Assembly: GCA_905221615.1 (NCBI GenBank)
Contig: CAJNDT010001857.1
Coordinates: forward strand, 1 to 64,000
DNA: 64,000 nt
Direction of reading: 5' to 3'
Source: Symbiodinium sp. CCMP2592
Taxonomy: Eukaryota; Sar; Dinophyceae; Suessiales; Symbiodiniaceae
The notes below the pieces were generated by a model. The model was not told where the DNA came from, made no database searches, and was given only the letters and a program-made list of their open reading frames with translations. Below are positions 12,801 to 51,990 of this stretch, piece after piece (within the stretch, counting starts at the first letter, position 1; each line of letters begins with the position of its first letter). The translations under genes were made by a program, and so were the position numbers.

Positions 12801-14355
12801 TCCCGTGACGAAGACGTTTCCTTTTGGTTGCAAGGGTTTTGCCAAACCTGCGAAGCAGAAGCCTGAGAATCGAGGCCGCCGCCTCATCCCGTGTATGTAC
12901 CTAGGGCCTGCTAAGCCCAATGGTGGAGGAGTGCGTGTGCTCCCTCTTGATCGGCCTGATGAGGTCGAGGTGATGTCGGCCTTTCGGCCGGACCAGCCTT
13001 ATCTGTATCCTGAGGAGTTGGTGGTACAAGCCGCTGATTCGGGTGCCCCTTCTAGGCAAGACAACGTTTTAGAGCGTCCTGTTTCCTTAGACCTGAAGCC
13101 CCCCGAAGCCTTTCAGCCTGGAGAGCCTAAGGGTAATCTAGTTGAGAGGGGGAGTGCGGAGCCGGAGGCTCCAGCTGAGCTCTTGGAGGATGAGCTTATG
13201 GACTATGATCCTTCTCCAGTTGAGGAGGAAGAGGTACTCCCTGAAGGGCCCCCTGCAGGAGAGAACGAGGCCCCACCTTTGTACGATGTGGACATGCAGC
13301 CGGCCGACGATGATGATCCCATGGAGGTGGCGATCAGCTGGCTGGAGGACCATGCTTTGTACTCCATGTGTTCTAGACCTGAGGTTGTGTTCGCGGCAAA
13401 GGACGCTAAAGGGTCTAGGGCTGCCAAGTTGGAGTTTACTTTGAAGTTTGGAGGGTCCAAGGTGAAGGTTGAGGTTCCTTCTGGGGCTGCTGATGAGTAT
13501 ACTGGAGAGGTTCTTGAGGAGAAGAAACTTGGGGAAGGGATGCGTCTTGAAATGGAGGAACTGGACCACTTTGGTGTGTGCCAGGTTGTGTCGGAGAAGG
13601 AGGCGTTTCGCCTTGTGCGGGAGGCCAAGAGGAGAGTGCTTTCCACCAGGTGGGTGTTGCACTACAAGGACGGGCACAAGCGTGTGCGCTGCCGTTTGGT
13701 TGTGCGTGACTTTAAGGGGCCCACCTCTGCTTTAGCTGATGGCATCTATTCTCCTACTACTACCTTAGAGTCTGTGAGGTGTCTGTTGGGGATGTATGCG
13801 CATTTCGGAGGGAAGGTGATTTCGGGAGATATTTCTGTGGCCTTCATGCAGGCTAAGCTGTTTTCTACTGAGGTGGTGAAGCTGCCGGAGAACTGTAGGA
13901 CAGTGTCAGGTGAACGTGTGCATTGTCTCCTGAAGCGTGCCATGAATGGTTTGCGGATTGGGCCTTTGGCTTGGTTTCGTGAGCGAGGAGAAACACTGAG
14001 AAAACTTGGTTTCTTTGTCACTGCTGACAGCACTGTGTATCGCAAGGTGATCAAGGAGAAAGGCAAGGATGCCATTGTGTTGGTGTTGGCCTATGTAGAT
14101 GACATCTTGGTTTTCAGCACGGTTGCTAGTGTAGCTGAGAAAGTGTTTGAGGAACTGAGTAAAGTGTTCAAGATGAAGCGCACGGGAACGCTTCAACCGG
14201 GAGAGAAATCGGTGATCTCCTTTCTTGGGAGAAACATTTATCAGAGGAAGACCGGAGACTTGTACTTCGGACTCAAACCCGGGATGCTCCATAGCTGTGC
14301 GGAAGAGTATCAAATCACGAAGGGAGCCCAAGAGCTGATTTGCAGTTTGTTGTAG
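6835..14355 (+). CDS. Copia Gag-protease-integrase-RT polyprotein frame
   Basis: The 2506-codon frame starts 32 bases after the primer site. Residues 1-430 are Gag (Ala/Pro/Gly-rich head, then a helical part), followed by a K/G-rich linker and a CCHC knuckle (C451, C454, H459, C464). The aspartic protease site is D592-S-G-A. The integrase has a zinc motif (H1787, H1792, C1799, C1802) and acidic residues D1827, D1885 and E1925. Copia-type RT follows from about 2260, with YVDD at 2420-2423; the frame ends soon after RT. RNase H lies downstream in another frame. Between protease and integrase are about 950 residues (roughly 760-1710) with no recognised domain: low-complexity repeats, a short hydrophobic stretch near 825-845, and a 1.5-kb part whose sensible reading is in the +1 frame (9764-11311). 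Translation of this spacer as part of the polyprotein, or its removal by splicing, cannot be decided from the sequence. Confidence 0.85.
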   Translation: MASPLQGGSSETPAQNVPVPEEGMDFDLFGPGPVGPVGPVNSPVGSPTAQQAAAAAPASGSATVPEGVSGPAVAPVAPAQCPVPPNPALGGEQLQQLMLQMLNNQNTALQQQQNQMNFLMQAQSAQLTLLNRRLDEKEARRKADEDRRKVSSDPFAAAVAASSSGAAPTAPTGSLVAPPSGPAASSGSFSSFGGRAEKYLPPLPLINAGEMKQGRIRELEEFHRFLEVLSSWLALTDDAFVGELRQCLFVAGEIQQVTLPSDTAGRSARLFYLLQQALAKWDRGLEILRSVSTRQSNAAAGYEGVRELYRQYSVNSRMEAVYIRDEMLKLHTKTAALKRPLEVVRFLEDEISKGDKKLVRFPDLCLNAADRSAILLQAVSVQAREYLVLHGKTGSWTEMAESLRFYEEQLRMVELPSGGLRGLKGDKGGKDGKGAKGGKAGGAKDKSQIVCWYCEKKGHYQEECRQRIADEKKQGKGDKSNKPKGKGQGDKDKGKGKEKGKGKHGKDKGKDKKNKKQHARAVADGEAEEEPEGETVMALRASGELVPVDARGGVLRTTPSTTEVPAAAHRVTVEHRVYLVGIESQDSYWLVDSGATSHCMSVSCFEKYEVLRTYDFKPTLSNASNDMIEVLKVCDVRVRFGKLVVVLEHCLITNLDFNVLSPFVAWQRGWHTMLTNTPHIFNKKNKKRIRLTVKDRAWYAVAALKDSGDKMEVDALKPSSSPKATEKPETTKPPKATEKPETAKPPKATKAQKAQKAQEQRSLESVKSLEYTPFKFLLRSLRTHGGSAVSVCEGAALESLERCDLDRLGCGSRSGKKDSEAQPSWTAGSMMISVVSLWCMACVGVLCSLWTLASECACEVPGLGFLQDLRGGSLRRLQGSAVRVVRECACKVSGLGFCQDLQGGSSCRLQGSECARSVRRRLQGSECARSVRRKLQGSECARSVQGGFKWRLQGCARVVHRSLVLKLLFFGLLVLCDGASTKEAARAPGILDGRGSQVVAGGSDGSENGGSHRYEELGCRATIRCGDSSIGDRKHGSGGIRAEADGGARPAHEDLARVAHNGSAFTAKIATAKITAAVKAGRRRGRRMGQMAPRFWCGHGCCRGPGCCREIRRESAQAQEKTGISCDKGGHEGLKGGTWCGKEGQAGLEGGCSNREGRGGPCGPYFSESTFVCRAHLEEEGPEAGGWSGDYGLQAPVHETGPSGSHGEEGRESQEACEKGGKGQSACRRRPWMGAKPPGRKSRRLAGPGAGAGGSGPTCGGGDCGNHCRCPRSCSCTCEEEAKEEGSRCRGCCGRGGASCCRGGGADYSGALSSTWKASFGSNAKDSEGQAGCDLEAGRYRDSGWATAAKGEAVQVAVFEKSRGKGTRDPWSSGSCFGASEGYASEASAIGGGASEGGAREGHAGIASASIAVAAVTAPAVGVPRIVFAGTAAASGIPQIAFAASPADRSKEQGTDPPNTTGTRWFVWPSRPRVNATRTRIQEIPVPLCFYLRSTSRPTAGRKRMHLKRKWKRSSVRVGCFECGECPGVLGRKGEVLRLQRYRVLRVFGKGFASECEAQTPTEAWRPSDVLQVFCEGFVRKAQALLKALGPSVRVCLPGYAQEAPRAQAPKASKVTEAPRVSKAPKVPEAPKAKAPRASKAPRAPEAPRASKAPRASEAVECFVLGVVRRLRSLCCCGLERVRGLWLCCACGWDDLRSEPLKVKGGCDEKVSEPPHRLCMMRGLPVEVTISDEELIPDGDPPRQAEPAQASAPAPVVEAEPAAENAGDISEEGELHVPLEDKEYQEHVARGHQPYLPSCSLCVSSRGVIPARRRKDPSIPQASFLSDFLFFTKDLRVCIVVHELSGYCFAVPYPTGGDPGHVARCINAELAAAGIQGQHVVVRMDNEGSLISLWNKAGKDRSYPGLSLHIDAVPKGRPQSKGLVEVGVRHLKEAFWVNWLTLETTLEKKLRLGGLLYKEALRYVARTRNLHATSKSQTTPIERLRRQHLPVTKTFPFGCKGFAKPAKQKPENRGRRLIPCMYLGPAKPNGGGVRVLPLDRPDEVEVMSAFRPDQPYLYPEELVVQAADSGAPSRQDNVLERPVSLDLKPPEAFQPGEPKGNLVERGSAEPEAPAELLEDELMDYDPSPVEEEEVLPEGPPAGENEAPPLYDVDMQPADDDDPMEVAISWLEDHALYSMCSRPEVVFAAKDAKGSRAAKLEFTLKFGGSKVKVEVPSGAADEYTGEVLEEKKLGEGMRLEMEELDHFGVCQVVSEKEAFRLVREAKRRVLSTRWVLHYKDGHKRVRCRLVVRDFKGPTSALADGIYSPTTTLESVRCLLGMYAHFGGKVISGDISVAFMQAKLFSTEVVKLPENCRTVSGERVHCLLKRAMNGLRIGPLAWFRERGETLRKLGFFVTADSTVYRKVIKEKGKDAIVLVLAYVDDILVFSTVASVAEKVFEELSKVFKMKRTGTLQPGEKSVISFLGRNIYQRKTGDLYFGLKPGMLHSCAEEYQITKGAQELICSLL
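8998..9106 (+). repeat. In-frame 36-bp repeats in the Copia spacer (KATEKPET type)
   Basis: Units encoding KATEKPETTKPP and KATEKPETAKPP are followed by shorter KATKAQKAQKAQ units. The period is a multiple of three, so the polyprotein frame is kept. Confidence 0.8.
9397..9669 (+). repeat. 96-bp and 39-bp direct repeats in the Copia spacer
   Basis: A 96-bp unit starting GAGTGTGCTTGC at 9397 recurs at 9493. Each copy includes AGGGTTAGGGTTT, a telomere-like string. A 39-bp unit starting at about 9553 (GGCTGCAAGGCAGTGAGTGC) is present three times, to about 9669. Both periods are divisible by three. Confidence 0.85.
9764..11311 (+). CDS. Accessory Lys/Pro-rich protein frame nested in the Copia spacer
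   Basis: This 515-residue frame is shifted +1 relative to the polyprotein frame that runs through it. It starts MGRRRKKQPEPP; the frame is open further upstream to 9569, but that part only repeats a 39-bp unit. It has a charged helical segment with ERRQMEEHDQLTKIWREWH, a long Lys/Ala-rich segment (KRKKKRASRA, KKAKRALKEA), glycine-poor Pro/Val-rich repeats (PVKAMP three times, PLGYQGS and PLGYHRS), and an Arg/Ser tail KRSRSRSVSI that resembles RS domains or nuclear-localisation signals. The composition looks like a real protein, whereas the polyprotein frame over the same bases is irregular. Both frames lack stops over the whole stretch. I do not recognise a family. It may be a nuclear-targeting or nucleic-acid-binding accessory protein; that is inference from composition only. 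Confidence 0.5.
   Translation: MGRRRKKQPEPPVSSTDEEARSSQAAVMAQRMADLTAMKSSAAARRSDVVTVASVIESTAREESERRQMEEHDQLTKIWREWHTMAVLSQPKSPLPKSPLPSKLEEEEEEGWGKWRPDSGVATDVAEALDAAEKSVEKVPKRKKKRASRATKEATKALKEARGAAKKAKRALKEAAATEKAEVDPVDPTFPNPHLFVAPTSKKKARKLEDGPVTMGYKRQFMKLDQVVRTEKKVVKAKRRARKVAKGKALAEGALGWVQSRLDERAEGLPAQEPEQGAVDLLVAVGTAETTVDAQEAVPVPAKKKRKKKEAAAEAVVEEVAPAAAEEEVPITPAPSAPRGKPRLAPTPKTAKARPAVTLKPAVIVIPDGPPQPKVKPSRSPSSRRVVAKAPETPGAVDPALVPVKAMPVRPVPLAAAPPKVVPVKAMPALPAPALPLPPLPPPPLGYQGSFLLGPQPPLGYHRSLLLQAPPIDPKSKAPIRPTQRVLGGSYGPPDQGSTQQGRGSKRSRSRSVSI
11640..11815 (+). repeat. Imperfect repeats encoding AP-K/R-A/V-S/P units
   Basis: Strings such as GCACCGAGAGCCAGCAAA recur, alternating with AGCACCGAGAGCCCCCGA, and encode a chain of Ala-Pro-Arg/Lys units in the polyprotein frame. 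The stretch lies between the nested accessory frame and the integrase. Confidence 0.75.
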
Positions 14356-15746
14356 GTTTTCTGGCCTGGAGCCAGAGCAACCCAGACTCCAGGAGTGAAG
14401 CGTGTATTCGAGCTGTGCTGCGTTGGGTTCTCACGCTTGGGAATCGGGTTCAGCGGATCCCGGCACAGTGGGTGAACTATCGCCCTTCGGAAAGTATGCG
14501 CGTGATCGATTGTTTCTGTGATGCTAGCTGGAATTTGCCCTCTGTGAGTGGGGCGATTATCTGCTGGCAGTGCAACCTCCTGAAGAGTTTTAGCCGTAAA
14601 CAGACGGTTGTGGCCCTGAGCAGTGCCGAGGCTGAATTGAGTGCTTTGGTAGAGACTGTGAAAGAGGCTTTGTTTGCAGGGTTGCTTCAACAGTCGTTTT
14701 TGGAGGGATTGCCTGAGGATGATACCGGAAGCTTTTGGATCCGGATTTGTACCGATTCTGAGTCGGCAAAGGCGATTGCTTCAATGGAGGGACTCTTGAG
14801 AAGGGTTCGTCACCTGGAGTTGCGGTGTGCTTTCCTGCAGCAGATGGTTCAGTCGGGGAGAGTGATCCTCGAGTTTGTGGCCGGAGCATATAATGCCTCC
14901 GACGGCCTGACCAAGAGTATGGTCTTTCAGGAGCAGCTGGACAACCTCTACGAGGTAACCGGTTTGGTTTCTTTTGAAGACGAGTTGGGTGAGTTTGAGT
15001 TGGAACGCCTGACTGCAGAAGAGCCGGTAAACCGTTCTTTTGTTCCTGAGGAGTACGTTTCACTGTGTGAAGCTGTGGCGAAGAACCAGGTCACCTTTGT
15101 GGTCGTTGAACTGTTCTGCCAGGAAGAAAGTGCCTTACAGAAGGCATGTGAGAAGCTTGAGATTGCCTATGTGGGCGTCACTGAAAAGCTTGACTTTTGT
15201 TCTGAGCAGACGCAGTGTTTTCTGAAGGAGTTGTTTTCTGTGTTGAGTTGTGGCTTGAAGACTAAGATCTACTGCCATATCTCCACTCCCTGTACCACTG
15301 GGTGTCGTTTGCGTTACCGCGGGTGGCGCAAGTACAGTCAAGAGAAGTGGGAAGAGAAGAAGAAGTTGCATCAGCGTGCTTGGGAACTTCTTGAAGGTTT
15401 GTTGAAACCGGTTGCTCGGAGTGAACGCTTGTTGTTGACTCAAGAGTGGCCTCTGCAGAACGACCTCTGGAAGGACCCGCGGTATCTTCAGGTTGCTTCA
15501 GAATTGGGGCTTTCTGAGGGTATTGTGGTAGATCGCTGTGCGTACGACTGTGTGTTTAAACGGTGGTACTTTGCCACGAACAGTAAACGCTGGGTCCAAG
15601 TGTTTCCTAAAAGGGATTGTGACCAAGTGCATGAACATGTACAGGTGGAATTGAAAGATTCAGGGTTCTATCCTGAGAAGCTAGGTCTAGAGCTTGTAAA
15701 GTGTGCTCAAAAGACACTAGGTGCCGCATCAGTCCAAGAGGGGTAG
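14340..15746 (+). CDS. Frame-shifted Copia RNase H with a methyltransferase-like tail
   Basis: The frame is displaced by one base relative to the preceding polyprotein and overlaps its last 16 bases; numbering here starts at 14340, which is a TTG, not a true start. The RT-RNase H connection is recognisable (QFVVGFLAWSQ), then RNase H with D61 (FCDASW), E97 (SSAEAEL), D139 (CTDSES) and D188 (NASDGLTK). All four catalytic acids are kept, so decay is limited. No obvious slippery heptamer is seen at the junction, so a plain indel is as likely as programmed frameshifting. After RNase H come about 250 extra residues that start with VVVELFC (257-260) and contain HISTPCTTG (C318). These recall motif I and the Pro-Cys motif IV of cytosine-C5 methyltransferases, with TPC in place of PPC. 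The rest of the tail, rich in aromatic and charged residues, is not recognised. Confidence 0.7.
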   Translation: MQFVVGFLAWSQSNPDSRSEACIRAVLRWVLTLGNRVQRIPAQWVNYRPSESMRVIDCFCDASWNLPSVSGAIICWQCNLLKSFSRKQTVVALSSAEAELSALVETVKEALFAGLLQQSFLEGLPEDDTGSFWIRICTDSESAKAIASMEGLLRRVRHLELRCAFLQQMVQSGRVILEFVAGAYNASDGLTKSMVFQEQLDNLYEVTGLVSFEDELGEFELERLTAEEPVNRSFVPEEYVSLCEAVAKNQVTFVVVELFCQEESALQKACEKLEIAYVGVTEKLDFCSEQTQCFLKELFSVLSCGLKTKIYCHISTPCTTGCRLRYRGWRKYSQEKWEEKKKLHQRAWELLEGLLKPVARSERLLLTQEWPLQNDLWKDPRYLQVASELGLSEGIVVDRCAYDCVFKRWYFATNSKRWVQVFPKRDCDQVHEHVQVELKDSGFYPEKLGLELVKCAQKTLGAASVQEG

Positions 15747-17526: not shown

Positions 17527-17746
17527 GCTGCTTGGGTCCTACCAAAAGTGTGTTCGAGAGCCTTGAGGGGGGGTGGGGGGGGAAAAACAGTTCGACTCTG
17601 AACGCTTGAATCCTTGCGGACATGTGATTGACGATTTCACTTGAGCTTGATTTTACCTCGGCTTGATTTTAGATTGAGTGCTTGATCACTGTACAGTGTG
17701 AACGAGATCCTTGCACGGCAAAGTTACGACTCAAGTTCTTTTGTGA
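17527..17746 (+). repeat. Split direct repeat A1
   Basis: The repeat starts GCTGCTTGGGTCC and ends CTTTTGTGA. It is repeated at 25577-25797, which has one extra G in the G run. It includes G7-T-G8 (17567-17582), then AAAAACAGTTCGACTCTG. The recombinase frame starts 56 bases downstream, so A1 probably carries the promoter and leader. Confidence 0.95.
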
Positions 17747-17802
17747 GTGGGTGGGCGTAGGGGACCTCCGGCGCTATGGCTCACCATGAGTGAATTCCGG
17801 CA

Positions 17803-19797
17803 ATGGGCTCGGAGTGGCAGCAGCTTCGAGAGATCAACCCTGTTTTCTGCGAGCGTGTTTCGAAGGTCTTCTTGCATATTGGAAACTTTTGCTTGGCTGC
17901 AGCTACGCTTGAGGATGTACAGGCAATCGTGGATGATTCGATGAGTGATGTTCTTAAGATTGAGGATCGTGTGGCGCTTACAGAGTCAGTGCATAAGTGG
18001 TGCGCGCTTCATCAAGGGACAGTGGAAAGGACTGTTCGCGAGATCGGGCAGAATGTCCGACGTGGGCCTTATATCCGTCGTGGGCCCAGTGTGACGGCTG
18101 CCGATTTGTATGAGGGGCTTTTGGCTTCTGACCCTGTGCTGGGTTTGGCTGCTCTTGAGAAGAAGTTAAAGCTTCGCAAAGCTGGAACAGGGGCGCGTGT
18201 GGAAGCAGAGGACTTGTGCAGGCGCCGCTGGGGTCTCAAGCTCGCGGGCTACATCCAGGAGGCGGATCTGCCAGCATCTGAGAGAATTGGGTCGCTGGCT
18301 GACGCGGAATCGGCCTGGCTACGGGCTTTCGGTAGCAGGCGCGGCAAGACCTTGAAGAATCGGGCTCGCACGTGGGAGCCGGTGCGCGAGTGGATGATTC
18401 AGGCGACCGGGAAACCTTGGCCAGGAGACGCATCGCTGTTGCTGCAGTACTTTGATGAGAGGCATCAGATCAGGCCGATGGGGAAGACTGTTCCGCAGAG
18501 TATCTTGTCAAGCCTCGGTTTGCTGGAGCTGGTTGGGCAGAGGCCTTCAGCAGATAGGCTGTCGGAGGATCCTTTACTTGTGGAGTCTGTGAAGGCATGG
18601 ACGATGCAATTGGAGACAGGTGCCGAGCCGGTCAAGCAGGCGGAGCTCGTTACGGTGGCAATGGTGCTCTCGGCTGAGATTCTGCTGGTGAAGGTCGGGA
18701 CACCCCCGGGGCTGCGGTTCGGATGCTTCATTTTCTTGCTTATGTGTTGGGGAACGCTGCGATGTGACGATATACAGGGGATCGATCCTTCGAGTGTTAC
18801 GCTGTCACAGCTTGGAATGAAATTTGTTCTTTCCCGGACCAAGACCTCTGGACCTGGAAAACGGATCGGGCAGCTGCACGGATACCTTGTGAGGAGCATA
18901 AGCCTTTCTGGCTATGACTGGATTGCGCATTCATGCAAACTCTTGATGAGCGAGGATTTCAAGTTTGCTCGGGATTTCTTGTGTCCAGACATTGGTGAGT
19001 CGTGGGAAGTCAAATCGAGGGAGTACGTTGGAGCAGAGGGGGTCGCCAACCTTGTACGACGTGTGATCCTGGAGCTGCCGGTCCCGGGGAAGAAAGATGG
19101 AGTCTGGGGTCTGAGCAAGACAACGAAGCTGGTTCCAAAGGAGCTGGCGCTCTTCTGGTCCGGGCACTCGCCGAGGCATTTCCTTCCATCCTTGGCGGCA
19201 GCAATTGGGATCGACGAAAAGAAGCGCGACTTTCTCGGACGGTGGGCGGCTGCCCGGCAGGGGTCAACCGCTTATGTGCTGACGGCCAGACAAATTATAC
19301 AGCAAGTTCAGGCTGAGGTGTGCGAGACACTCTTGACTGGGAAGAACCAGCCCGGCTACATCGAGGAGGAGCTGCTTCTTCGCTTAAAGGCGTTTGCGGA
19401 GCAACATGGAGTTTCTAACGGGGCTGTTGCACGCCACAATGTCATGGTGTGGTGTGCACTCAACTTGTGCTGGAGTCTTCAAGGAAAGTTTCCGGCAATT
19501 GCAGTTGACCCCGGAAGCCATCAGCAAGCGGTGGCCGAGCCACCGAAGGACCAGCCGGCGCCTTCTCCGGAGGATGCAGATGCGCCATACTTTGTTGTTG
19601 TGAGTCGTAGTGGGCACAGACGTCTTCACATGTCGCGCACTTGTGCTGTAAGGCAGGAGCGTTGCTTGGAGACCATTCCTTTGTACAGCATCACTCAGGA
19701 TTCTGCAGATGCAATTTGTAAGTTATGCAGGCCCCGGCTAAAGGAGCAAGGGGCGGTCAGCAGTGAGTCCGCATCCTCAGATGCAGTGGAGCCGTGA
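17803..19797 (+). CDS. Tyrosine recombinase of the nested element
   Basis: The frame has 664 residues and is intact. The C-terminal half has the tyrosine-recombinase signature: R320 in WGTLRCDDI, lysines in RTKTSGPGKR (about 343-351) that could supply the catalytic Lys, H455-S-P-R458 in WSGHSPRH, W481 in the position of the second His, and Y491 in GSTAYVL as nucleophile. The N-terminal half (about 1-290) is helical and probably binds DNA; it is not otherwise recognised. After the catalytic domain a tail of about 170 residues ends in a His/Cys-rich part (RLHMSRTCAV, then AICKLCRPRL) that may bind zinc. The role is integration of the circular DNA copy through A/B repeat junctions. It lies directly behind A1 on the same strand as Gag and Pol. 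In the DIRS-order elements I know, the recombinase is usually last or on the other strand, so the order is odd. Confidence 0.88.
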   Translation: MGSEWQQLREINPVFCERVSKVFLHIGNFCLAAATLEDVQAIVDDSMSDVLKIEDRVALTESVHKWCALHQGTVERTVREIGQNVRRGPYIRRGPSVTAADLYEGLLASDPVLGLAALEKKLKLRKAGTGARVEAEDLCRRRWGLKLAGYIQEADLPASERIGSLADAESAWLRAFGSRRGKTLKNRARTWEPVREWMIQATGKPWPGDASLLLQYFDERHQIRPMGKTVPQSILSSLGLLELVGQRPSADRLSEDPLLVESVKAWTMQLETGAEPVKQAELVTVAMVLSAEILLVKVGTPPGLRFGCFIFLLMCWGTLRCDDIQGIDPSSVTLSQLGMKFVLSRTKTSGPGKRIGQLHGYLVRSISLSGYDWIAHSCKLLMSEDFKFARDFLCPDIGESWEVKSREYVGAEGVANLVRRVILELPVPGKKDGVWGLSKTTKLVPKELALFWSGHSPRHFLPSLAAAIGIDEKKRDFLGRWAAARQGSTAYVLTARQIIQQVQAEVCETLLTGKNQPGYIEEELLLRLKAFAEQHGVSNGAVARHNVMVWCALNLCWSLQGKFPAIAVDPGSHQQAVAEPPKDQPAPSPEDADAPYFVVVSRSGHRRLHMSRTCAVRQERCLETIPLYSITQDSADAICKLCRPRLKEQGAVSSESASSDAVEP

Positions 19798-20070
19798 CAC
19801 ATGAGGGGGTGAAAATTTCGTCGCATCAGGGGCTTGTCCCGTGAGTCAAAGCAGGAAGTACTTCGGTTGTGCCACGTCCCGTGAGCATCAGATTGGGACA
19901 TTGCATCAGATTGAGAAGAGCCGCAGTCACGTCAGTATCAGGTGCAGTGCTTTGACATGTCTTTCTTGTCTTAACGTTGTGCGAATTGAGGTGAGCCAAT
20001 CAGACTCTTCAGACACTGTGGCATTTCTTCACACAGTGTGTTCGGTGGTAGCTTGCAGTGAGTTCCAGAC
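19798..20070 (+). other. Spacer between recombinase and Gag
   Basis: The spacer is 273 bp and closed in the recombinase frame (TGA a few codons after the gene). Short direct repeats occur: GTCCCGTGAG twice (about 19836 and 19878) and GCATCAGATTG twice (about 19885 and 19903). It may hold a promoter or a trans-splicing acceptor for the Gag-Pol message; nothing specific can be shown. Confidence 0.4.
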
Positions 20071-21444
20071 ATGGATTTGCCAGCTGGAGTGAGTGAGGAA
20101 GCGGCTTCGAAGTTCTTGTCCAGTGAAGTCGATGCTGAACTTGCACACATCCTTCAGGAAGCTGGAGTCCCGCTTGGATTGCAGTACAAACTCACACAGT
20201 CTTTCAAGACTGTGAGGCGGTTTCAGTCTTATGAGGACACCCGTGCAGGGATACGAGATGCATTGAAGAACGATTTCGCTCTGGAGCCTACCACTCTTGA
20301 TAAGCGCGCTGGGATCTCAGCTGTGATTAGTGCTTGGGAGGCATGTCAACAATTTGCCGCGAAAGAGCAGGAGCTTCGCGCGGAAGCGCGCGTGTTGGGG
20401 GTTTCAAGGCCCGTCACACAGACAGATCGGAGTGCGATGAGAGCCGCCTTCGAGGCGACCCACGGCAGGCTTGAAGATGCACATGAGCCTTCCGAGGATT
20501 ACATCTCATGCAAGATGGAGGAGCTTGAGGCTCATGAGCCGACGGCTTCGCCGCTGTCCGAGGTTACATCACGCAAGACTGTGAAGACTCAGGGGATCCA
20601 GACTGCAGTCGATTCTTCAGGCCATGTTCGTATCGTGCGGACAAAGGTCAAGGGATCATTGCCTCAGGGCACTGAGGAATTGCGCACGGTGATGCGTGTT
20701 GAGTGCAACTTGTGGTGCTTCTTGGCGACCAAGTATCGCAACCGCGAGCTCTTGCGAGGCATGGACCCCGAGTGCTGGAATCAGTATGTTGCTTTTCTGC
20801 TGTCTGACAAGGTTTACCTTCTGAAGGTGCCGATGGCAGGGGGCAAGGGCAATCAGACCGAACATGTACCATTGCGGCCCCCTTGGTCAGTGTTGCTGAA
20901 TTTCGAGTTTGAGTTGCGAAAGGAGGCAATCAAACGGGCTGTACAGGGCAATCGGCCTTTGAAGGATACACTCGTGGAGGTGACGTCCGATGCTCAGCTC
21001 AAGGAGCAGTATTTCACATCGCCCATTGCCCTTCAGCAGGTTGCACCTCCACCGCGGCCAGATCCTTTCTGGCCACAGCGACGGTTCCGACAGTGGGACA
21101 ATGATTGGTCCGAGAGCCCGGCCAAGTGGCAGCGAACAGGCAAAGGACGTGGCCATGGAAAGGGCAAGAACGGCAAGGGGGGCAAGGCCAACCGCGATGA
21201 ATCCAAGGGCGATGGCAAGGGCCTCGGCGGTGGCAAGGGCAAGAGTGATCATGCGCTCTGGACACACACGCCGGATGGACGTCAGATTTGTTTTCCATAT
21301 AACGCTCAGGGTTGTGATGGCAGCTGCGGTCGAGTTCATGTATGTCGCGTCCGAGGGTGCATGCAGTCCCATCCGATGTGGCAGCATTTCCAGAGCTTGG
21401 CAGCAAAGGCGGCAGCACCGACCGGGGCGCAAGCCACCAACTGA
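20071..21444 (+). CDS. Gag-like protein of the nested element
   Basis: The frame has 457 residues and starts MDLPAGVSEEAA. A helical N-terminal part (1-130) is followed by an acidic linker. A folded part (about 190-320) has WCFLATKYRNRELLRGM and WNQYVAFLLSDKVYLLKV. A basic G/K-rich segment (about 350-392) leads to a CCCH-type finger: C407, C415, C419, H423 (spacing 7-3-3), followed by further Cys and His residues (CRVRGCMQSH). A basic segment plus a zinc finger fits an RNA-binding nucleocapsid. The stop is UGA followed by C, and Pol continues in the same frame directly after it, so a Gag-Pol fusion of 1722 residues would arise by readthrough. I chose the ATG at 20071 because it is the first one followed by a continuous frame. 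Confidence 0.75.
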   Translation: MDLPAGVSEEAASKFLSSEVDAELAHILQEAGVPLGLQYKLTQSFKTVRRFQSYEDTRAGIRDALKNDFALEPTTLDKRAGISAVISAWEACQQFAAKEQELRAEARVLGVSRPVTQTDRSAMRAAFEATHGRLEDAHEPSEDYISCKMEELEAHEPTASPLSEVTSRKTVKTQGIQTAVDSSGHVRIVRTKVKGSLPQGTEELRTVMRVECNLWCFLATKYRNRELLRGMDPECWNQYVAFLLSDKVYLLKVPMAGGKGNQTEHVPLRPPWSVLLNFEFELRKEAIKRAVQGNRPLKDTLVEVTSDAQLKEQYFTSPIALQQVAPPPRPDPFWPQRRFRQWDNDWSESPAKWQRTGKGRGHGKGKNGKGGKANRDESKGDGKGLGGGKGKSDHALWTHTPDGRQICFPYNAQGCDGSCGRVHVCRVRGCMQSHPMWQHFQSLAAKAAAPTGAQATN

Positions 21445-21447
21445 CGT
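21442..21447 (+). promoter_or_regulatory. Candidate UGA readthrough site between Gag and Pol
   Basis: TGACGT: the Gag stop is TGA followed by C, the context known to be leakiest for eukaryotic readthrough. Pol is in the same frame, and there is no other stop down to 25237. In the Pol frame the first ATG is at 22003, after the methyltransferase motifs, so an AUG-initiated Pol would lack that domain. A GTG at 21460 is the only near-start before motif I. Confidence 0.55.
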
Positions 21448-24400
21448 TCCAAACTCACCGTGCTGTATCTTTTCGCTGGGCAGGCACGGGATGGAGATAT
21501 CCGATCACACTTACAGCAGCTCTGCACGTCGCGGGGACTGGATTTAATTTTGCATGAGTTTGATTTGCTGCGGGGTCCTGAACAGGACCTATCGTCGCAC
21601 AGGCTTTGGGAGCGTCTTTTCAAGGACATTTCATCTGGAGCCTATGATATCCTTATTTTGAGCCCGCCTTGTTCCACTTTTTCGCGGGCTAGACATCGTT
21701 TTGCGGGGGCATTTGGCCCACGCCCACTTCGTTCACATGGCCATCTGCTGGGTTTTCCTTGGTTGCGTGATTCAGATCGCACAAAAGTTGAGCTGGCGAA
21801 TTTCTTCGTGCAACAATCTTTTGAGGCCATCCGTTTACAGAGGCAGCAGGGCTTGTACTTCATTCTGGAGCACCCTGAGGATCTGGGCCGTGTGCCGTCT
21901 GGTGAGAGGCCTGCTTCCATTTGGTCTTTTGATGAGGTTCGTCAGATTTGCGCTGGAGGCGATGTCAGTTGCTGGGCATTGCATCAATGCCTTTTCGGGG
22001 CTATGTCTTGCAAACCCACTCGCTTGTTATCCAATCTGCCCGGAGCATTGAACTTTGGGATACAGATGCCATGTTTCAATGATGACGGGGACTACGTGGG
22101 GCCGCTCTTGCGCTGTCCGCATTCACATGCAGATCGAGCCTGCGGTTTTCAGGATGGCACTTGGAAATCGGCCGCCACGGCGGCTTACCCTTCGGAGTTC
22201 GCTGCTTTCTTCGCCCGTCTCTCTTTGAGTGTGATGCCTGAGCTGAGGGCCGTGGCTGACTCCGACCTGATCCCAGCCAACATCCCTTCATCCGCCGAGG
22301 CCTTTGCCACGGAGTGCATCGCACGCGGTTCTTTCGATCGTGCTTCAGTTCAGATTCTTTTCGACTTGCTTCCTAAGACTCGGCCTCATAAGATCACGGG
22401 CAGTGCAGAACCTGGCACCGCTTTCTTTGGAGGCACTGTGCACCAGGAGGGTCTCACCGCACCGCGGTCCACTTGTTTTACATTCCCCGAGTCCATGCGT
22501 GTGATCAATGCTTTTCTTCACTCCGTGGACCCGCACCACCGTTACGCTGCTTTTGTTCTCACAAAGAACGTGACTAGTGAGGTTCATCGTGATCCGCGAA
22601 ATGCAGCTGTGCCCAACATGATTGTGGCAATTTCCTCCTTTACTGATGGTGGCATTTGGATACAGGATGACTCAGGTACCCAGGTGCGATCCTTTCACGG
22701 CTCGCCCGTCACAGGCACTGTACACTCCTTACAAGATGGACCCGTCTACCTGGATGCCCGTGGATGTTTGCATGCTACCCAACCTTGGGTTGGGGATCGT
22801 CTCATCGCCATTGCATACACCCCTCAGTACATGCACCTGCTCTCTGTTGATGATTCGGCTTTTCTGGCTTCATTGGGCTTTCCTGTCTTGGATTCCTCTC
22901 CTGCGGGGGGGGAGGCACCAGCGGAATCCTTCGTTTCCTCAGACAACTTCACCTTGGCTGCAGCAGTGCCGGCGATAGACAACTCAGGCACTGGAGATGC
23001 TCAGGAGGTCGTGGTGATCGATCATGAGGAGTCGGCCAGGGAAGCTTTTGACCCCAAGACTAGTCGCGCTTTCGGGCAGCCCATGATCTGCAAGTTTGAA
23101 ATGGGCAAGCAAGAGTTTGTGGACGGCTTCGGGTTGTGTTCGCCTGGCCGTTGGGCTCCCGAGGCGAGAGAGAAGTTGGCGTCGAGTGATGAGGTGGCAC
23201 ATGCAGAGGGAATTCGCGGATTGCTACGAGACTTTGTGATTGATCAGCTGAAAGACCCCAAGGACATGGCGTTCCGTCTCGCGACGGGCCATGTGAAGAA
23301 TTCTCCTTTCGCGGAGTCTGCCTTGCAGAAGTTGAGGCAGAGGATCGTCGGGTTGATCCCAGGGGCGCCTTCAGACCTGTTGCGTGTTCCCGAGCGGCAG
23401 CCGTTCCACTTGTACTTGCTGGCCGAGTCGCTGAGGCTACTTGGTGACCCCGACTGGGAGATTCTTGTGCAGGGGGAAGAGTGTTATGCCGAGGGGATGC
23501 CGGTGGGCTTCGACTCGCCACTGCCAACGGCGCCGCAGGTGTTCCGGCCGAGGGACCGCTTCCGCAAGCTGGATGAGAGTGAGTTTGAACCGCAGATGCA
23601 GAACTACTCTTCTGCCGAGCTGTCTTCAGATAAGATCGAAGAGCACTTCAGGGCTGAGGAGCGGGAAGGCTTGATGGTGGCGACGACTGAAGGGGCCGTG
23701 AAGGCGGAGTACGGCGAGGGGCGACTTCTGGTGGCCGCCATGGGGGCCATTCTTAAACCAAGTGGTGATGTCCGCCCTCTTCACGACGCCACCCACGGCG
23801 TCCGCTTGAACAATGGTATAAGGATTGCAGACAAACTCGAAGTGCCTGGACCTGCGGAAATCATCGAGACCGTGTCCAGGGCGCGGCAGGATTTCGGCGT
23901 CCCCTTCTCCATTGCGGCGGACATTGCCAAGGCACACAGGAGGTCCAAAATACGACGATGCGACTGGCCTTTGTTGGGCTGCCGGACTTCGTCTGCATCT
24001 AAAGTGATTTGGCTTAATTGCGTAGGAACTTTCGGGGTAAGTTCAGCTGCGATCCTTTGGGCCAGATTGTTCGGATGCATCGGACGCTGGGTCTTGAGAG
24101 TGATGGGACGGCTCTGGAATGTGCAGATTGTGTACGTTGATGACCTTCATATCGTGGTGACTGGTCCCGACAAATACGTGGTGCTCTGGATGATCTTGGC
24201 TGCTTACGAGGTGCTGGGCACGCCGTTTTCTTACCGGAAGTTTCACGGTGGTGTTGAATGCGAGTTCGTGGGCTACTGGCTTTCTTACCGAGAGAGTGCC
24301 GCCGGGATTTCGCTCAAGAGGACGCGCTGGGTTCTTGATTGGATCGACAATGCCGAGGCGAACAACTGGTTCGTCACGGGTCGGCGCTTTGCCGAATTCC

Positions 24401-25239
24401 TTGGACGGCTCAACTTTGTTTCCAGGGTGTTGACTTGGATCAAACCTTTTCTTGCACCGCTGTATGCTTTTGATGCCGTCTTGCAGAAGGGGACTGTGGC
24501 GAGGATTCCGGAGATGGTCTTCGTGTCGCTTGTTTATATCAGGGAACAGCTTGCGGAGTCCAGGGGACTCCACAGTGTGCTCCAGGATTGGCGGGCGCCG
24601 CGCGAGAGTTTCAGGACGGATGCCAAATGCACAAACGGCTTGGTGGTGCTCGGCGGCTACTCGCTTGAGAATGGGACGGACCCGTCAGTTGCACGCTGGT
24701 TCTGCCTCGATGTGTCGCAACAGGATCTGCCTTGCCTCTTCAAAGATGACGGCGATAGCCAATGGGCATCGACGAGTGCGGAGTTGCTGGCCTCGCTTGC
24801 TGCGTTGAAAGTTTTCGATCACCTGGAAAAGGAGACGTCGGGTGTGCACGACAACATCAGGACTGTGGTTTGCGGCGGAACTGACAATTCTTCGACTGGC
24901 AAGCTGCAGAAGAAGGGCTCGAGCACTAAGTGGCCGTTGATGGGCATCCAGATGGCTTGTGCAGCGGCTTTGCATAAAGTGAACAAGCAGCTCACGCTGC
25001 AGTGGAGGCCTAGAGATGAGAACACTTTGTCGGATGCCATCACCAACCACGACTTCTCGAGTTTCTGCCCGGAGCTGAGAGTTCCTTTGAAGCTGGACGA
25101 TCTGCCGCTTGATATTTTCCTTCGCATGGTCCACTCCAGGAGTGCTTTCTTGGATTCGCGTGTCAGCTTGCAGCGATTGGTTTCGAGGGAGTCGGCAATG
25201 TCTCGCCGGGAGAAGGAGACGAGCAAAACACCTTGGTGA
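21445..25239 (+). CDS. Pol: C5-methyltransferase-like, TET/JBP-like dioxygenase-like, RT, RNase H
   Basis: Numbering is from the GTG at 21460 (1259 residues). Residues 1-250 are methyltransferase-like: motif I LYLFAGQARDGD (2-13), motif IV SPPCSTFSRA with catalytic-type C71, motif VI FILEHPED with E137; motifs VIII-X are not recognised. Residues about 330-470 resemble a 2-oxoglutarate/Fe(II) dioxygenase of the TET/JBP type: H376-R-D378 then N381, a strand with SSFTDGGIWIQDD, then H438 and R447 in HATQPWVGDRLIAIAYTP. Residues about 470-735 are a linker of unknown role. RT lies at about 740-960, with ILKPSGDVRPLHD, D821 in SIAADIAKAHR and YVDD at 892-895. RNase H lies at about 1045-1200, with D1054, E1108, D1142 and D1192. 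No break is seen. Expected roles are reverse transcription and RNA removal; methylation or oxidation of cytosine in the DNA copy is inference. Confidence 0.85.
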   Translation, partial: RSKLTVLYLFAGQARDGDIRSHLQQLCTSRGLDLILHEFDLLRGPEQDLSSHRLWERLFKDISSGAYDILILSPPCSTFSRARHRFAGAFGPRPLRSHGHLLGFPWLRDSDRTKVELANFFVQQSFEAIRLQRQQGLYFILEHPEDLGRVPSGERPASIWSFDEVRQICAGGDVSCWALHQCLFGAMSCKPTRLLSNLPGALNFGIQMPCFNDDGDYVGPLLRCPHSHADRACGFQDGTWKSAATAAYPSEFAAFFARLSLSVMPELRAVADSDLIPANIPSSAEAFATECIARGSFDRASVQILFDLLPKTRPHKITGSAEPGTAFFGGTVHQEGLTAPRSTCFTFPESMRVINAFLHSVDPHHRYAAFVLTKNVTSEVHRDPRNAAVPNMIVAISSFTDGGIWIQDDSGTQVRSFHGSPVTGTVHSLQDGPVYLDARGCLHATQPWVGDRLIAIAYTPQYMHLLSVDDSAFLASLGFPVLDSSPAGGEAPAESFVSSDNFTLAAAVPAIDNSGTGDAQEVVVIDHEESAREAFDPKTSRAFGQPMICKFEMGKQEFVDGFGLCSPGRWAPEAREKLASSDEVAHAEGIRGLLRDFVIDQLKDPKDMAFRLATGHVKNSPFAESALQKLRQRIVGLIPGAPSDLLRVPERQPFHLYLLAESLRLLGDPDWEILVQGEECYAEGMPVGFDSPLPTAPQVFRPRDRFRKLDESEFEPQMQNYSSAELSSDKIEEHFRAEEREGLMVATTEGAVKAEYGEGRLLVAAMGAILKPSGDVRPLHDATHGVRLNNGIRIADKLEVPGPAEIIETVSRARQDFGVPFSIAADIAKAHRRSKIRRCDWPLLGCRTSSASKVIWLNCVGTFGVSSAAILWARLFGCIGRWVLRVMGRLWNVQIVYVDDLHIVVTGPDKYVVLWMILAAYEVLGTPFSYRKFHGGVECEFVGYWLSYRESAAGISLKRTRWVLDWIDNAEANNWFVTGRRFAEFLGRLNFVSRVLTWIKPFLAPLYAFDAVLQKGTVARIPEMVFVSLVYIREQLAESRGLHSVLQDWRAPRESFRTDAKCTNGLVVLGGYSLENGTDPSVARWFCLDVSQQDLPCLFKDDGDSQWASTSAELLASLAALKVFDHLEKETSGVHDNIRTVVCGGTDNSSTGKLQKKGSSTKWPLMGIQMACAAALHKVNKQLTLQWRPRDENTLSDAITNHDFSSFCPELRVPLKLDDLPLDIFLRMVHSRSAFLDSRVSLQRLVSRESAMSRREKETSKTPW

Positions 25240-25274
25240 TCCTTCACATGTCGGACTGGCTGCCTTCCTTCGGG

Positions 25275-25576
25275 GGGGGTCTCGAGGCAACTGCGACCGT
25301 CATGTGAACATGTGGTCCAGGCTTCAGACGGCAAGATCCAGTTCGACGCACCGATTGAAAACAATGGTCTTCGAGTATGCCTTCGATTGCGCGATGCCTC
25401 AAGAGTGATTCTGAGCAACTGCATGTTCGATCGTTTACTGCTTGAGCTTTGGTGTGGAACCTTGGTGAATGCATTCGAGCGTCAGATGCAGTTGATTTTC
25501 CAACGACTTTGATTTCCCTTAAAAACCCGACCCTAACCCTCAAGGCTCAAAGGTTCGACTCAAGGCGTGAGAACAC
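25275..25576 (+). repeat. Split direct repeat B1
   Basis: The repeat starts GGGGGTCTCGAGGCAACTGC about 35 bases after the Pol stop and ends GGCGTGAGAACAC, directly abutting A2. It is repeated at 25814-26114 with one A fewer in the ACCCGACC region. It contains GACCCTAACCCTCAAGG, a telomere-like string. Confidence 0.95.
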
Positions 25577-25797
25577 GCTGCTTGGGTCCTACCAAAAGTG
25601 TGTTCGAGAGCCTTGAGGGGGGGTGGGGGGGGGAAAAACAGTTCGACTCTGAACGCTTGAATCCTTGCGGACATGTGATTGACGATTTCACTTGAGCTTG
25701 ATTTTACCTCGGCTTGATTTTAGATTGAGTGCTTGATCACTGTACAGTGTGAACGAGATCCTTGCACGGCAAAGTTACGACTCAAGTTCTTTTGTGA
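25577..25797 (+). repeat. Split direct repeat A2
   Basis: This is the second copy of A1 (221 bp, G7-T-G9 in place of G7-T-G8). It follows B1 without a gap, so the internal B1-A2 block is the head-to-tail junction expected of the element's circular form. Confidence 0.95.
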
Positions 25798-25813
25798 CCC
25801 GCCCTCCCACACC
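25798..25813 (+). other. 16-bp spacer between A2 and B2
   Basis: CCCGCCCTCCCACACC. Its CGCCCTCCCAC is the inverted complement, with one mismatch in 11, of GTGGGTGGGCG that directly follows A1 (17747-17757). It may mark the core where recombination joins the repeats. Confidence 0.5.
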
Positions 25814-26114
25814 GGGGGTCTCGAGGCAACTGCGACCGTCATGTGAACATGTGGTCCAGGCTTCAGACGGCAAGATCCAGTTCGACGCACCGATTGAAAA
25901 CAATGGTCTTCGAGTATGCCTTCGATTGCGCGATGCCTCAAGAGTGATTCTGAGCAACTGCATGTTCGATCGTTTACTGCTTGAGCTTTGGTGTGGAACC
26001 TTGGTGAATGCATTCGAGCGTCAGATGCAGTTGATTTTCCAACGACTTTGATTTCCCTTAAAACCCGACCCTAACCCTCAAGGCTCAAAGGTTCGACTCA
26101 AGGCGTGAGAACAC
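25814..26114 (+). repeat. Split direct repeat B2 (right end of the nested element)
   Basis: This is the second copy of B1 and ends GAGAACAC at 26114, after which the sequence diverges (CCACTTGAGCC). That divergence sets the right boundary of the element. Confidence 0.95.
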
Positions 26115-45121: not shown

Positions 45122-47361
45122 GTACTCTTCGGATCTTGCCGAGAAGGGGTGCCTCACACAGCTCCCATTCTCCCCGGAGATGCTTGACACCATTTTCCCT
45201 TGCAGTGCATCCGCCCAACTGCTCAACTTGGCTGATGCCACCTGGATGGACGACCTTGCTCTGATGCTCCTTGGGCAATCTGCTGAGAAGATCACTGAAC
45301 AGGCTGCCACTGCGGCTGGGTCACTTCTTGATGCCTGTCTGTCTAGAGCCCTCTTGCCCAATCTTACCCGAGGTAAGACGGAGCTCATTCTCGTGCCCGC
45401 GGGTCCGGGGTCTAGGACGGTTAGGTCTCAACTCTTTAGAACTAAAGATCCGACCCTTGCCGTCCCGTCACGCCTTTGGCCAGAGGCGAGGATTCGCTAA
45501 GTCAATTCGTACAAACATCTAGGGGGGATCATCCACTTTACAGGGGATTTGGCAAAGGAAACTCGCACTAGGATTGGCATGGCTCACGACGCGTTTCAGA
45601 AGCGCAAGCGGCAGGTCTTCGCGTCACCTTCTGTGCCCTACGCTGCGAAGGCCACCCTCTATTGTTCCTTGATTTTGTCGGTGCTTCTACATGGTGCTGG
45701 CACTTGGCCTACGCCAAGCAACTCGGTGCTTTTGTCTTTGAGCTCTGCGCATGAGCGGATGGCCGGGCACATGTGCCGGCCTACCTGGGATTTTGAGGAG
45801 GCCATCCATGCAGGGCGTGACCAGACCCTGGCCCTCCTTGGTCTGCCATCTTTGCAGGTTCTGCTGCATCTTGCCCGACTCCGGCATTTAATGCTGTTCA
45901 TTAGGCTTGGCCTGAAGGAGCTATTGGCCTTGGCGCATTGGGAGGGACAGTGGCTTGCAGCCGCTAGGTCCTCCCTTGAATGGTTGTGGGCCCTCACCGA
46001 GTCGCAACACACTTCTCCGACATGGATGACGGTGTGGCCGTCCTGGCTGCAGATGATCCAGAGGACGCCTGGTCGGTGGAAGGCCCTTCTTAGACGGGCC
46101 CAACAGCAAGCGGTTGTACGGGAGCAATGGGTTGCCGCCAGACAAAAACACCACGCCCTCCTTGTCAAACAGCTCAACGCGCATGGAGCTGTTGTGCATG
46201 GGGCGGCCCAAGACCATCAAGATTCAGTCCACTGCTGCGCTCCATGCGGAATGGTGTTCGCCAACAAGCAGCGTTGGTCTGTCCATGCCTTTTGGCCGAG
46301 GCATTCTGCCAGGGTTTCAATGCCAAGCCTGTATGCGCACATACGCAAGCAACATACGCCTCTGTCGACATCTCCATCACTCCAGCTCATGCCGTAACCA
46401 GCTCCTTGCCATGGGTCACTCATGTGACGTACAGCCCGGGGTTGGTCACCGCAAAGAGGATGACAACAGTGCTGGGATGTGCCCAACCCTCCTAGGAGCG
46501 GGGCCCACTCTCCCCCCCCCTACTGCCGTGTTGGAGGACAGAGCCCTCCTGCCCATAGCAGAAGTCTGGGACTGCCTGCAATGTGTGGAGTTTGATTGTC
46601 CGGCCACTCTTCTTTCTTCGGCGGAATTGTGGGCACGACTACGACAGGCTTTCTCATGTGTTTGCGCTTCCACGGACCGACTTCGAGTCACCGCCATAGA
46701 ATGGCACAGCCAACTGCAGGGACGCCCCCCAGGAGACCCCCTGCTCCAGGGTGCTTCTTGGATTTCTCAAGCCGATCTTGTACAATGGCTAGTGCCTTCA
46801 CCGGTCACCCAACCGAGTGCCTTCCGAACTTTCCGAGATTCGGAGTCAGTGTTGAGTATCATTGATGTGGCACCCATTCGCTGTGCGGCGAGTGAGGTTG
46901 ACCCAGATACCCTGACTGTGGTCCATGTCAAGCCTGATCAAGGTCATAGTCATCAGGGCACTGACGAGTGCCGCACTTTGGACTACAGTCACACCGAATG
47001 TCTGGAAGGTTTTCGTTCGGGGCATCCTCCCTCCTTCTTTGACGGCCCCTTTGATGGAGTGGCCTTTGTCCTGGACTTATCGGGCCTCCCTTCGCTCTCC
47101 TACGACCTTGACACGGCCCTGAATATCAAGGCGGCTTCATCTGCACGGGAGCACGCGACCCTTGCAGCCGACCTTGTCCGATTCTTTCTCAGAGTTGTCC
47201 TCCTCCAGGTGCCCGCACTCCTGCTTGTGTCTGGCACGGCTGATGTCGCCGTACATGCCGTTGCGTCACTCCAGGGTGTCCGCACAAATGTACAGAAAGG
47301 GTCGACGATACTCTCCGTTGCCGGGACGCCGGCTTTTCTGTTTCACTTTTTCAATCTTTAA
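45122..47361 (+). pseudogene. 5'-truncated LINE (non-LTR retrotransposon) ORF2 remnant
   Basis: The first frame (to about 45500) begins within RT: WMDDLALMLLGQSAEKI holds the catalytic DD, and a thumb-like part follows. After a frameshift near 45500-45549, KHLGGIIHFTGDLAKETRTR (read across the change) leads to ATLYCSLILSVLLHGAGTWP, the usual LINE sequence after RT. There follow zinc-finger-like motifs (CAPCGMVFANKQRWSVHAFW; CQACMRTYASNIRLCRHLHH) and a second frame change near 46300-46390. The final frame runs to 47361 and ends FLFHFFNL. No endonuclease or RT fingers/palm N-terminal part is present: the element starts next to a microsatellite, as expected for incomplete target-primed reverse transcription. 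The frame changes show that it is dead. The clade cannot be told. Confidence 0.85.
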
Positions 47362-47439
47362 TTAATGCAAGCCAACGGGCTGCAGCCAACTTGGATTCTG
47401 TGCCCCAAAAGCGAGAAAAGCGAGAACTAATAGTACGAT

Positions 47440-47770
47440 AGCATTTTCTATTCTGTTGTGTTGTGTTGTGTTTTATTAGTGTGTTCTCTCATGTTATGCT
47501 GTATGGTTTCATTTCATATCATACTGGCTTATACGATGTTGTATGGCATTTTTCATAGTTTGTTCCCATTATATTGTGTTGTATCACATTACGGTACATC
47601 ATGCTACACTATATGATTATAATATACAATCTTATATCATATTATATCATAGTACATTATACTTCATTAGACTTTACTATATATCACATATTATTGTTTA
47701 CCATTATACCATATTGCTTTTTAATATAATATCATGTCATCTTTGTCTAGTTTATTTCAGTATGTTTCAT
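47440..47770. repeat. AT-rich low-complexity stretch 3' of the LINE
   Basis: Repeated TTGTGTTGTGTT, ATATCATA, TTATATCATA and TACATTATAC strings. It is much richer in A and T than the rest of the window. It may be the 3' tail of the LINE or an independent decayed microsatellite. Confidence 0.6.
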
Positions 47771-48206
47771 TAGATAGTATGTATGATGTATGTGCATCCA
47801 CGTGAGAGTAGTGCCTGCACCTATGTACTGCAGTTGGAAGCATACCGGCACCATCACCAGACAAAACAGTCATCATCTAAGTCCAGGTCTGATTTGCAGG
47901 AAGACGCTACTGCAAACTGTTGCAGTCGCTTGAACGAATTTGGTAACAGCGCCAAGCCCGACAAATAGAACCTTTCGGAAAGGTCGACTGTACCTCGAAA
48001 GAACCTGAAACCGTTTAGACCCCAGGTTTGGGGTCTATCCGAGCCTCATCAAAGATGCTGCGGGGTGCCTAGCCTTGCCTTCGACTGCCGAGGCCTGGGT
48101 GAAGATACTTACAGAGGCATGATCTGCATGTTAAGGTGTGTACGTACTTACCTGTCTGTAGACGGATCGAAAGATAGAGGATGAGACAGACACAGAGAGA
48201 CAGACA

Positions 48207-48322
48207 AAGAGAGAGAGAGAGAGAGCGCGGTGGAGGGGAACTTCCGCTTCGCCATAGCCCTGACGAAAGAGAGAGAGAGAGAGAGAGACAGAGAGAGATA
48301 GCGCGAGAGAGAGAGAGAGAGA
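48207..48322. repeat. GA/GACA microsatellite
   Basis: Interrupted GAGA runs with GACAGAGA and GCGCGAGA variants. Confidence 0.9.
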
Positions 48323-51949: not shown

Positions 51950-51990
51950 CGATACCCCCCTCAACCCAAAACCCTGATAAACCCTGATCC
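51950..51990. repeat. Small telomere-like island
   Basis: AACCCAAAACCCTGATAAAC followed by CCTGATCC. Confidence 0.45.

Follow-up and report, generated by a model that had tools for sequence, protein, structure and literature searches.

A dinoflagellate DIRS-order retrotransposon with putative C5-methyltransferase-like and TET/JBP-type dioxygenase domains in its Pol protein

A stretch of 64,000 nucleotides of the dinoflagellate Symbiodinium sp. CCMP2592 (positions 1 to 64,000 of contig CAJNDT010001857.1, assembly GCA_905221615.1), hereafter called the window, holds at positions 17527-26114 a single retrotransposon of the tyrosine-recombinase (DIRS-order) type, whose Pol protein carries ahead of its reverse transcriptase (RT) a region resembling C5 cytosine methyltransferases followed by a putative TET/JBP-type 2-oxoglutarate (2OG)/Fe(II) dioxygenase. 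The element is read on the plus strand and has the order A1-ORFs-B1-A2-B2, in which the ORFs are open reading frames and A and B are split direct repeats. Repeat A1 at the left end (17527-17746) matches A2 (25577-25797) in 220 of 221 alignment columns with one 1-base indel, and repeat B1 (25275-25576), which directly abuts A2, matches B2 at the right end (25814-26114) in 301 of 302 columns, again with one 1-base indel; both pairs being near-identical, the insertion is therefore recent. The coding part consists of three long ORFs, namely a tyrosine recombinase of 664 residues (17803-19797), a Gag of 457 residues (20071-21444) with a Gly/Lys-rich stretch and a Cys/His cluster at its C-terminus, and a Pol of 1264 codons (21445-25239), a single in-frame TGA (21442-21444) marking the Gag/Pol boundary as a probable readthrough site. 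Within Pol, whose residues are counted here from nucleotide 21445, the C5-methyltransferase-like domain covers 21454-22230 (residues 4-262), the TET/JBP-type domain 22294-22890 (residues 284-482), the RT core with its YVDD box 23710-24420, and an RNase H-like region 24610-25044. A preliminary description made from the sequence alone had proposed both the split direct repeats and an intact element with recombinase, Gag and Pol, and both are borne out, the latter by the three ORFs and by invariant recombinase positions; the motifs that it had singled out in Pol, SPPCSTFS, LEHPED, HRDPRN and HATQPWVGDR, are found at residues 73-80, 141-146, 381-386 and 443-452.

Three defining features of the DIRS order are present in the element: a recombinase with the R-K-HxxR-W/H-Y signature, repeats arranged A-ORFs-B-A-B, and an RT with RNase H in Pol. 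In the recombinase, delimited from the ORF list and from an alignment with five relatives, the catalytic positions R320, K347, H455xxR458, W481 and Y491 of that signature are invariant in all six aligned proteins; the assignment is by motif only because the protein has no Pfam match and no significant PDB profile match. RT and RNase H are likewise assigned mainly by motif, since 10/10 Pols aligned share the VDD of the YVDD box, together with four acidic residues of the RNase H type (D1059, E1113, D1147 and D1197). The window RT matches Pfam RVT_1 at E 0.32, and an indirect link to that family comes from a tblastn match of the window Pol (E 3.8e-12) to an ORF in locus L048 that itself matches RVT_1 at E 3.2e-4; a profile of the RT-RNase H part has no significant match in PDB. 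As to its anatomy, we hold with high confidence that this is an apparently intact, recently inserted DIRS-order retrotransposon of a dinoflagellate.

Pol lies in the frame of Gag after exactly one stop codon, always TGA, in 14/14 loci checked from about six families, L002 and L017 being left out of the count. The base after this TGA is C in 12 of these loci and A in two (L024 and L027), and the junction of L014 and L015 reads TGA CTA; TGA-C and TGA-CTA contexts favour readthrough. A single message probably encodes both Gag and Pol, the latter being translated by UGA readthrough. In the window Pol the first Met comes at codon 187, and the other loci have theirs at codons 6 to 168, so that internal starts are possible in some of them. 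Some dioxygenase matches (G000:C4960, C274, C113 and C3046) lie in open frames of 2085-2959 codons, against the usual 1200-1360, and are perhaps Gag-Pol fusions without the stop.

Copies and relatives were searched for in the same genome assembly (1.098 Gb, 5383 contigs), in which the dinoflagellate spliced-leader motif has 217 + 212 (= 429) exact occurrences, none of them within the window; the reversed control has 0, and the motif thus marks the host as a dinoflagellate. The Pol search returned at least 52 matches and the recombinase search at least 67, both numbers being lower bounds drawn from the best-scoring candidates. Eight Pol matches, the window's included, are full-length, free of stops and 97-100% identical, and the others are fragments and members of other families, whose identity varies with the region compared (35-53%). 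Among seven relatives examined, both repeat pairs are also found in L009, L012, L014 and L015, at 99-100% identity, L010 and L016 have one pair each, and the stretch examined of L022 has none. L022 (G000:C205:125800-135700) is a truncated window-type element, which ends near Pol residue 1182 and runs on in frame into another family's Gag-Pol, and in L010 and L012 tandem arrays of 53-113 base units stand beside the element. No relatives were found in viral contigs, and a tblastn search of phage records with a threshold of E 1 found none either; scanned as single sequences, the window proteins had no significant match in Pfam, NCBIfam, PHROGs or PDB.

The dioxygenase domain reads H381xD383..N386, then H443...G450 D451 R452. 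H381, D383, N386, H443, G450 and R452 are invariant in 10/10 Pols aligned, and the equivalent residues in 13/13 domains drawn from about eleven families and from both of the domain orders described below, so that the HxD...H Fe(II) ligands and the 2OG-binding Arg of the TET/JBP family (PF12851) are present in every one. Near-duplicates, as well as window-type copies that are broken (together L002-L008, L011, L012, L015, L017-L021, L023 and L025-L027), are excluded from the 13-domain set, in which two close pairs remain, L009/L016 and L010/L013; L012 lacks about 10 residues inside the domain. The Asn three residues past the Asp, equivalent to N386, corresponds to a substrate-contact position in TET2. 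With eight full-length stop-free copies, with other families and with this invariance of the dioxygenase residues, the Pol motifs are more than chance.

The link of this domain to the TET/JBP family comes through its relatives. The window domain is 36% identical to that of locus L024 (tblastn E 5.7e-30), and in single-protein Pfam scans L024 matches Tet_JBP at E 7.8e-7 (28.9 bits) and L051 at E 5.4e-5 (22.9 bits), Tet_JBP being the sole dioxygenase family matched up to E 10. Run against the whole genome, the Tet_JBP profile gives four matches of E 2.2e-4 to 3.0e-4 (best 150 of 155 candidates), none of which reaches the curated cut-off; all four lie in copies of a single further retroelement family (L024-L027). 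Such a six-frame search may miss host TET/JBP genes cut into short exons, which could explain why retroelements alone were matched. When the L024 domain is compared with PDB by phmmer, three TET2 sequences rank first (whole-sequence E 0.17) and both iron motifs are aligned, CTVAHRDTHNM on CAHAHRDLHNM and SALHATLP on RELHATTP, to which VHRDPRN and LHATQP correspond in the window. Several observations weigh against the assignment: the scores of L024 and L051 lie below the Pfam curated cut-off of 34.9 bits, 4/6 proteins in the Pfam scan of L051 have no match, the window's own Pol has none at E 5 and its N-terminal region, dioxygenase domain included, none at E 1, the better-aligned stretch of the L024-TET2 match has E 10 alone, and the 13-sequence dioxygenase profile matches no TET structure in PDB. 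The TET/JBP-like domain of the preliminary description thus holds through its Tet_JBP-matching relatives and its invariant residues but not through a Pfam match of its own, and the profile search suggested there as a check does find L024 and L051, though under the cut-off. Judged by homology to these relatives and by their weak alignment with TET2, the second Pol domain is very likely a TET/JBP-type dioxygenase.

The first Pol domain contains FAG (residues 10-12) as motif I, PPCSTFS with Cys76 as motif IV, and EHPED with Glu142 at the position of motif VI, where His occupies the place of the Asn in the canonical ENV. The FxG, Pro-Cys and Glu of motifs I, IV and VI of C5 methyltransferases are thus found in order in the window Pol, and FAG, PPC and E-HP are likewise all present in its seven near-identical copies. 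An adenine methylase of the kind carried by classical DIRS elements was considered for this domain and rejected, because PPC together with the motif order I-IV-VI agrees with a C5 enzyme. In a profile-profile comparison (hhalign), 12 methyltransferase-like domains (a set with the same exclusions as the dioxygenase set, and L016) aligned with six canonical DNA methyltransferases (DNMTs) of the same genome with a score of 36.7 and a probability of 35%, motif I falling on I and IV on IV. No column shuffle out of 100 reached this score (largest 18.4), and the dioxygenase profile, taken as a control, was reached by 70/100. With motif IV masked the score drops to 20.6, which 0/40 shuffles reach, and the same-order domains alone score 35.6, again reached by 0/40 (largest 28.2); PHROGs DNA-methyltransferase families match four of the nine such domains scanned, at E 0.007-0.1. 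On the opposite side, the reversed-order domains alone score 21.3, reached by 2/100 shuffles, the Pfam DNA_methylase search (PF00145) that had been suggested as a check matched none of the members scanned, and the window Pol is absent among the at least 124 genome matches to PF00145 listed (best 123 of 1338 candidates). Methyltransferase-like profiles have no significant match in PDB, where the Dnmt2 matches (E 1.1 and 0.67) rank below or amid unrelated proteins. Homology is likely, as the profile-profile signal beats the shuffles, but distant, as Pfam gives no match; the methyltransferase-like domain first described from motifs is kept in this weaker sense, and the first Pol domain probably derives, at a distance, from C5 cytosine methyltransferases.

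The two domains also occur together outside the window's own type of element. Elements of the L024 type carry the dioxygenase first, then the methyltransferase-like domain, then RT-RNase H, the two extra domains being in reverse order to those of the window. The RT part of L024 matches RVT_1 at E 0.0044 but, at a threshold of E 1, not the window Pol; two distinct retroelement types therefore share the module in opposite order. L024 and L048 (G000:C485, about 46246-54500) represent this second type, and no match to the window recombinase was found in the stretch examined; for the other reversed-order sequences the comparison covers the tandem domains only. When the L024 tandem (506 residues) is used as a query, 82 of 85 matches extend into both domains. 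Searches with each domain alone returned at least 150 matches for the dioxygenase (best 150 of 5038 candidates) and at least 139 for the methyltransferase-like domain (best 139 of 1820 candidates), many of them in open frames of more than 1000 codons. At the level of predicted domains, the pairing across elements is systematic.

Retention of the catalytic residues differs between the two domains. The motif-VI Glu is replaced by Ile or Val in 9/9 aligned Pols other than the window's (three families; 9/10 overall), the methyltransferase Cys by Ala in 4/10 (one family), and five of the nine lack motif I. L022, which represents a fourth sister family, has PPS and no motif-VI Glu, and the Cys is also lost in L052. 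None of the four sampled same-order sister families thus holds the full set of motif I, IV and VI residues, the Glu being lost in 4/4 and the Cys in 2/4; six reversed-order sequences have ENP in 6/6 and PC in 5/6, and the set is complete in five. For the window subfamily, the ratio of nonsynonymous to synonymous change (dN/dS) was summed over seven copies against the window, with shared changes counted repeatedly; the methyltransferase-like domain comes out at 0.062, the dioxygenase at 0.154, the linker at 0.285 and RT-RNase H at 0.078, and both extra domains are under purifying selection in this subfamily. The pair L010/L013 gives 0.198, 0.180, 0.418 and 0.036 for the same regions. The other pairs from damaged families give mixed values for the methyltransferase-like domain, 0.13 (L009/L016), 0.24 (L016/L017), 0.52 (L014/L015, from 11 changes) and 0.94 (L010/L012, from 8 changes).

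Because residue retention and dN/dS differ in this manner, the dioxygenase appears as the constant partner and the methyltransferase as conserved, as an enzyme, only in some families. The residue losses and the mixed dN/dS values weigh against a general scheme in which such elements write a methyl mark and then modify it, as the preliminary description had suggested; with its complete residues the window subfamily could do so, and so could the reversed-order families, and sister-family residue loss limits the scheme to these at most. The seven copies show no clear CpG decay, as 22/507 CpG positions changed against 42/1598 others (p 0.054; L007, with a 9-base deletion, is left out), and CpG decay was rejected as support; the family being so young, the result neither aids nor kills the cytosine reading.

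In DIRS elements, complementary DNA (cDNA) is turned into circular double-stranded DNA, which the recombinase inserts. We propose, with a probability of about 0.5, that the module serves pyrimidine carbon-5 base modification of the element's own new DNA, 5-methylcytosine (5mC) being placed and then oxidised in the window subfamily. Gag-Pol with its pyrimidine-C5 enzymes would adjoin the newly made double-stranded, probably circular, element DNA, on which the first domain of the window subfamily would place 5mC and the second would oxidise it to 5-hydroxymethylcytosine or further, before insertion by the recombinase. Where the first domain of a sister family is damaged, the dioxygenase may work by itself, with thymine or 5mC placed by the host as its substrate. 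New copies would benefit by resembling host chromatin DNA or by escaping silencing; in this proposal we infer the readthrough, the substrate, the timing and the benefit. A comparable pairing is known from phages, in which a C5-methyltransferase works with TET enzymes in hypermodification (PMC12730594).

The alternative that survives best concerns the base itself: a JBP-like thymine hydroxylase would put 5-hydroxymethyluracil (5hmU) into the DNA of the element, and perhaps of repeats in general, with DNA binding or base flipping as the main role of the methyltransferase-like domain. Indeed, dinoflagellates carry 12-68% of their thymine as 5hmU, and in Breviolum minutum a 5hmU pull-down was about 2x enriched in multimapping reads, read by its authors as repeats and transposable elements (PMC11071213), while JBP is an enzyme that hydroxylates thymine (PMC12730594). 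The same alternative would account for dioxygenase residues that are kept even where methyltransferase residues are lost, and for the lack of strong CpG decay. However, TET2, which acts on 5mC, gives the best alignment to the motifs of one relative, and the full set of methyltransferase residues is present in the window subfamily, where it is under purifying selection, and in 5/6 reversed-order sequences, more than mere DNA binding would call for. We consider thymine hydroxylation unlikely as the main role, although a serious candidate. A wider version, in which the retroelement Pol dioxygenases themselves write the 5hmU (and oxidised 5mC) that marks dinoflagellate repeats, so that the genome would be modified throughout by retrotransposon enzymes with no host gene, strikes us as improbable.

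Slightly less probable again is an action in trans against silencing, in which the dioxygenase would remove or mask host 5mC on integrated copies and so keep them transcribed, the methyltransferase-like domain being a targeting module. This role has been proposed for the TET/JBP genes on fungal DNA transposons (PMC12730594), and most of the Symbiodinium genome is CG-methylated, but most DNMT retrotransposons are silent according to de Mendoza et al. 2018 (PMC5890265). A domain lying within Gag-Pol would, moreover, be expected mainly in particles with cDNA. Least probable is that both domains are inactive or act elsewhere (on RNA, Gag or a chromatin protein), their residues kept for structure: 2OG enzymes with HxD..H..R do act on many substrates, and each of the four same-order sister families sampled lacks part of the methyltransferase residue set, but no 2OG family other than Tet_JBP was matched in the Pfam scan up to E 10 and the metal and 2OG ligands are invariant in 13/13 domains.

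The proposed modification of the element's own DNA would belong to an element of known kind with a new accessory domain pair. Kinetoplastid JBP thymine hydroxylases share its dioxygenase superfamily, and 5hmU, the JBP product, is abundant in dinoflagellates; to our knowledge, these JBPs are host genes without an RT fusion. The occurrence of 5hmU in dinoflagellates, and TET-family enzymes as its likely makers in general, are treated in PMC6723414, and PMC6338049 reviews accessory domains. The closest known system is SymbioDIRS-Dnmt3, a dinoflagellate DIRS-like element whose Pol contains a Dnmt3 and whose repeats are arranged A-coding-B-A-B (de Mendoza et al. 2018, PMC5890265). On the one hand, it shares with the window element these repeats, a tyrosine recombinase in its own ORF and a C5-methyltransferase in the RT-bearing Pol ORF. 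On the other hand, its domain is, as described in that article, a Pfam-detectable Dnmt3, whereas the window Pol has no Pfam DNA_methylase match; in the main text of the article the whole words TET, JBP, dioxygenase and hydroxymethyl each have 0 occurrences (PMC5890265). Locus L054 was tried as a SymbioDIRS-Dnmt3 Pol candidate and rejected, as it shows a canonical DNMT end with a stop soon after and a best match to the methyltransferase-like domains of E 0.75.

TET/JBP-bearing DNA transposons and Helitrons are known from fungi (Kojima 2025, PMC12730594), and like them the window element is a mobile element with its own TET/JBP dioxygenase, carried by different types across lineages; the fungal carriers are DNA transposons and Helitrons, whereas the window has a retrotransposon Pol domain beside a methyltransferase-like neighbour, and that fungal survey states that it found no TET/JBP retrotransposon. 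With the phage systems covered in the same source, the element would share the coupling of a methyl-placing enzyme to a TET-type oxidase, with its own DNA as the proposed target, but the phage enzymes work with glycosyltransferases and those of the window are parts of a retroelement polyprotein (PMC12730594); no glycosyltransferase was recognised among the ORFs of the window element in the ORF list or a general Pfam scan. In the open-licence literature searched, no retrotransposon was found with a TET/JBP-type dioxygenase, alone or beside a methyltransferase-like Pol domain, which agrees with the earlier remark that a methyltransferase and a 5mC-oxidase-type domain on one retroelement was not known to have been described. 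The 2018 finding of methyltransferase capture by dinoflagellate retrotransposons is thereby extended, the oxidising half being apparently carried too. Candidate enzymes can now be named for an old dinoflagellate puzzle, namely what makes 5hmU and why it is found on repeats, and a methyltransferase-like domain paired with a TET-type one could help to explain the odd modified bases of dinoflagellate DNA.

Elsewhere in the window, an ORF on the plus strand (14340-15746) has no Pfam match at E 10 and reads as a Copia-type RNase H-like end followed by methyltransferase-like motifs (VVELFCQEES ... STPCTTGCRLR); it is perhaps another retroelement with a methyltransferase-like domain.

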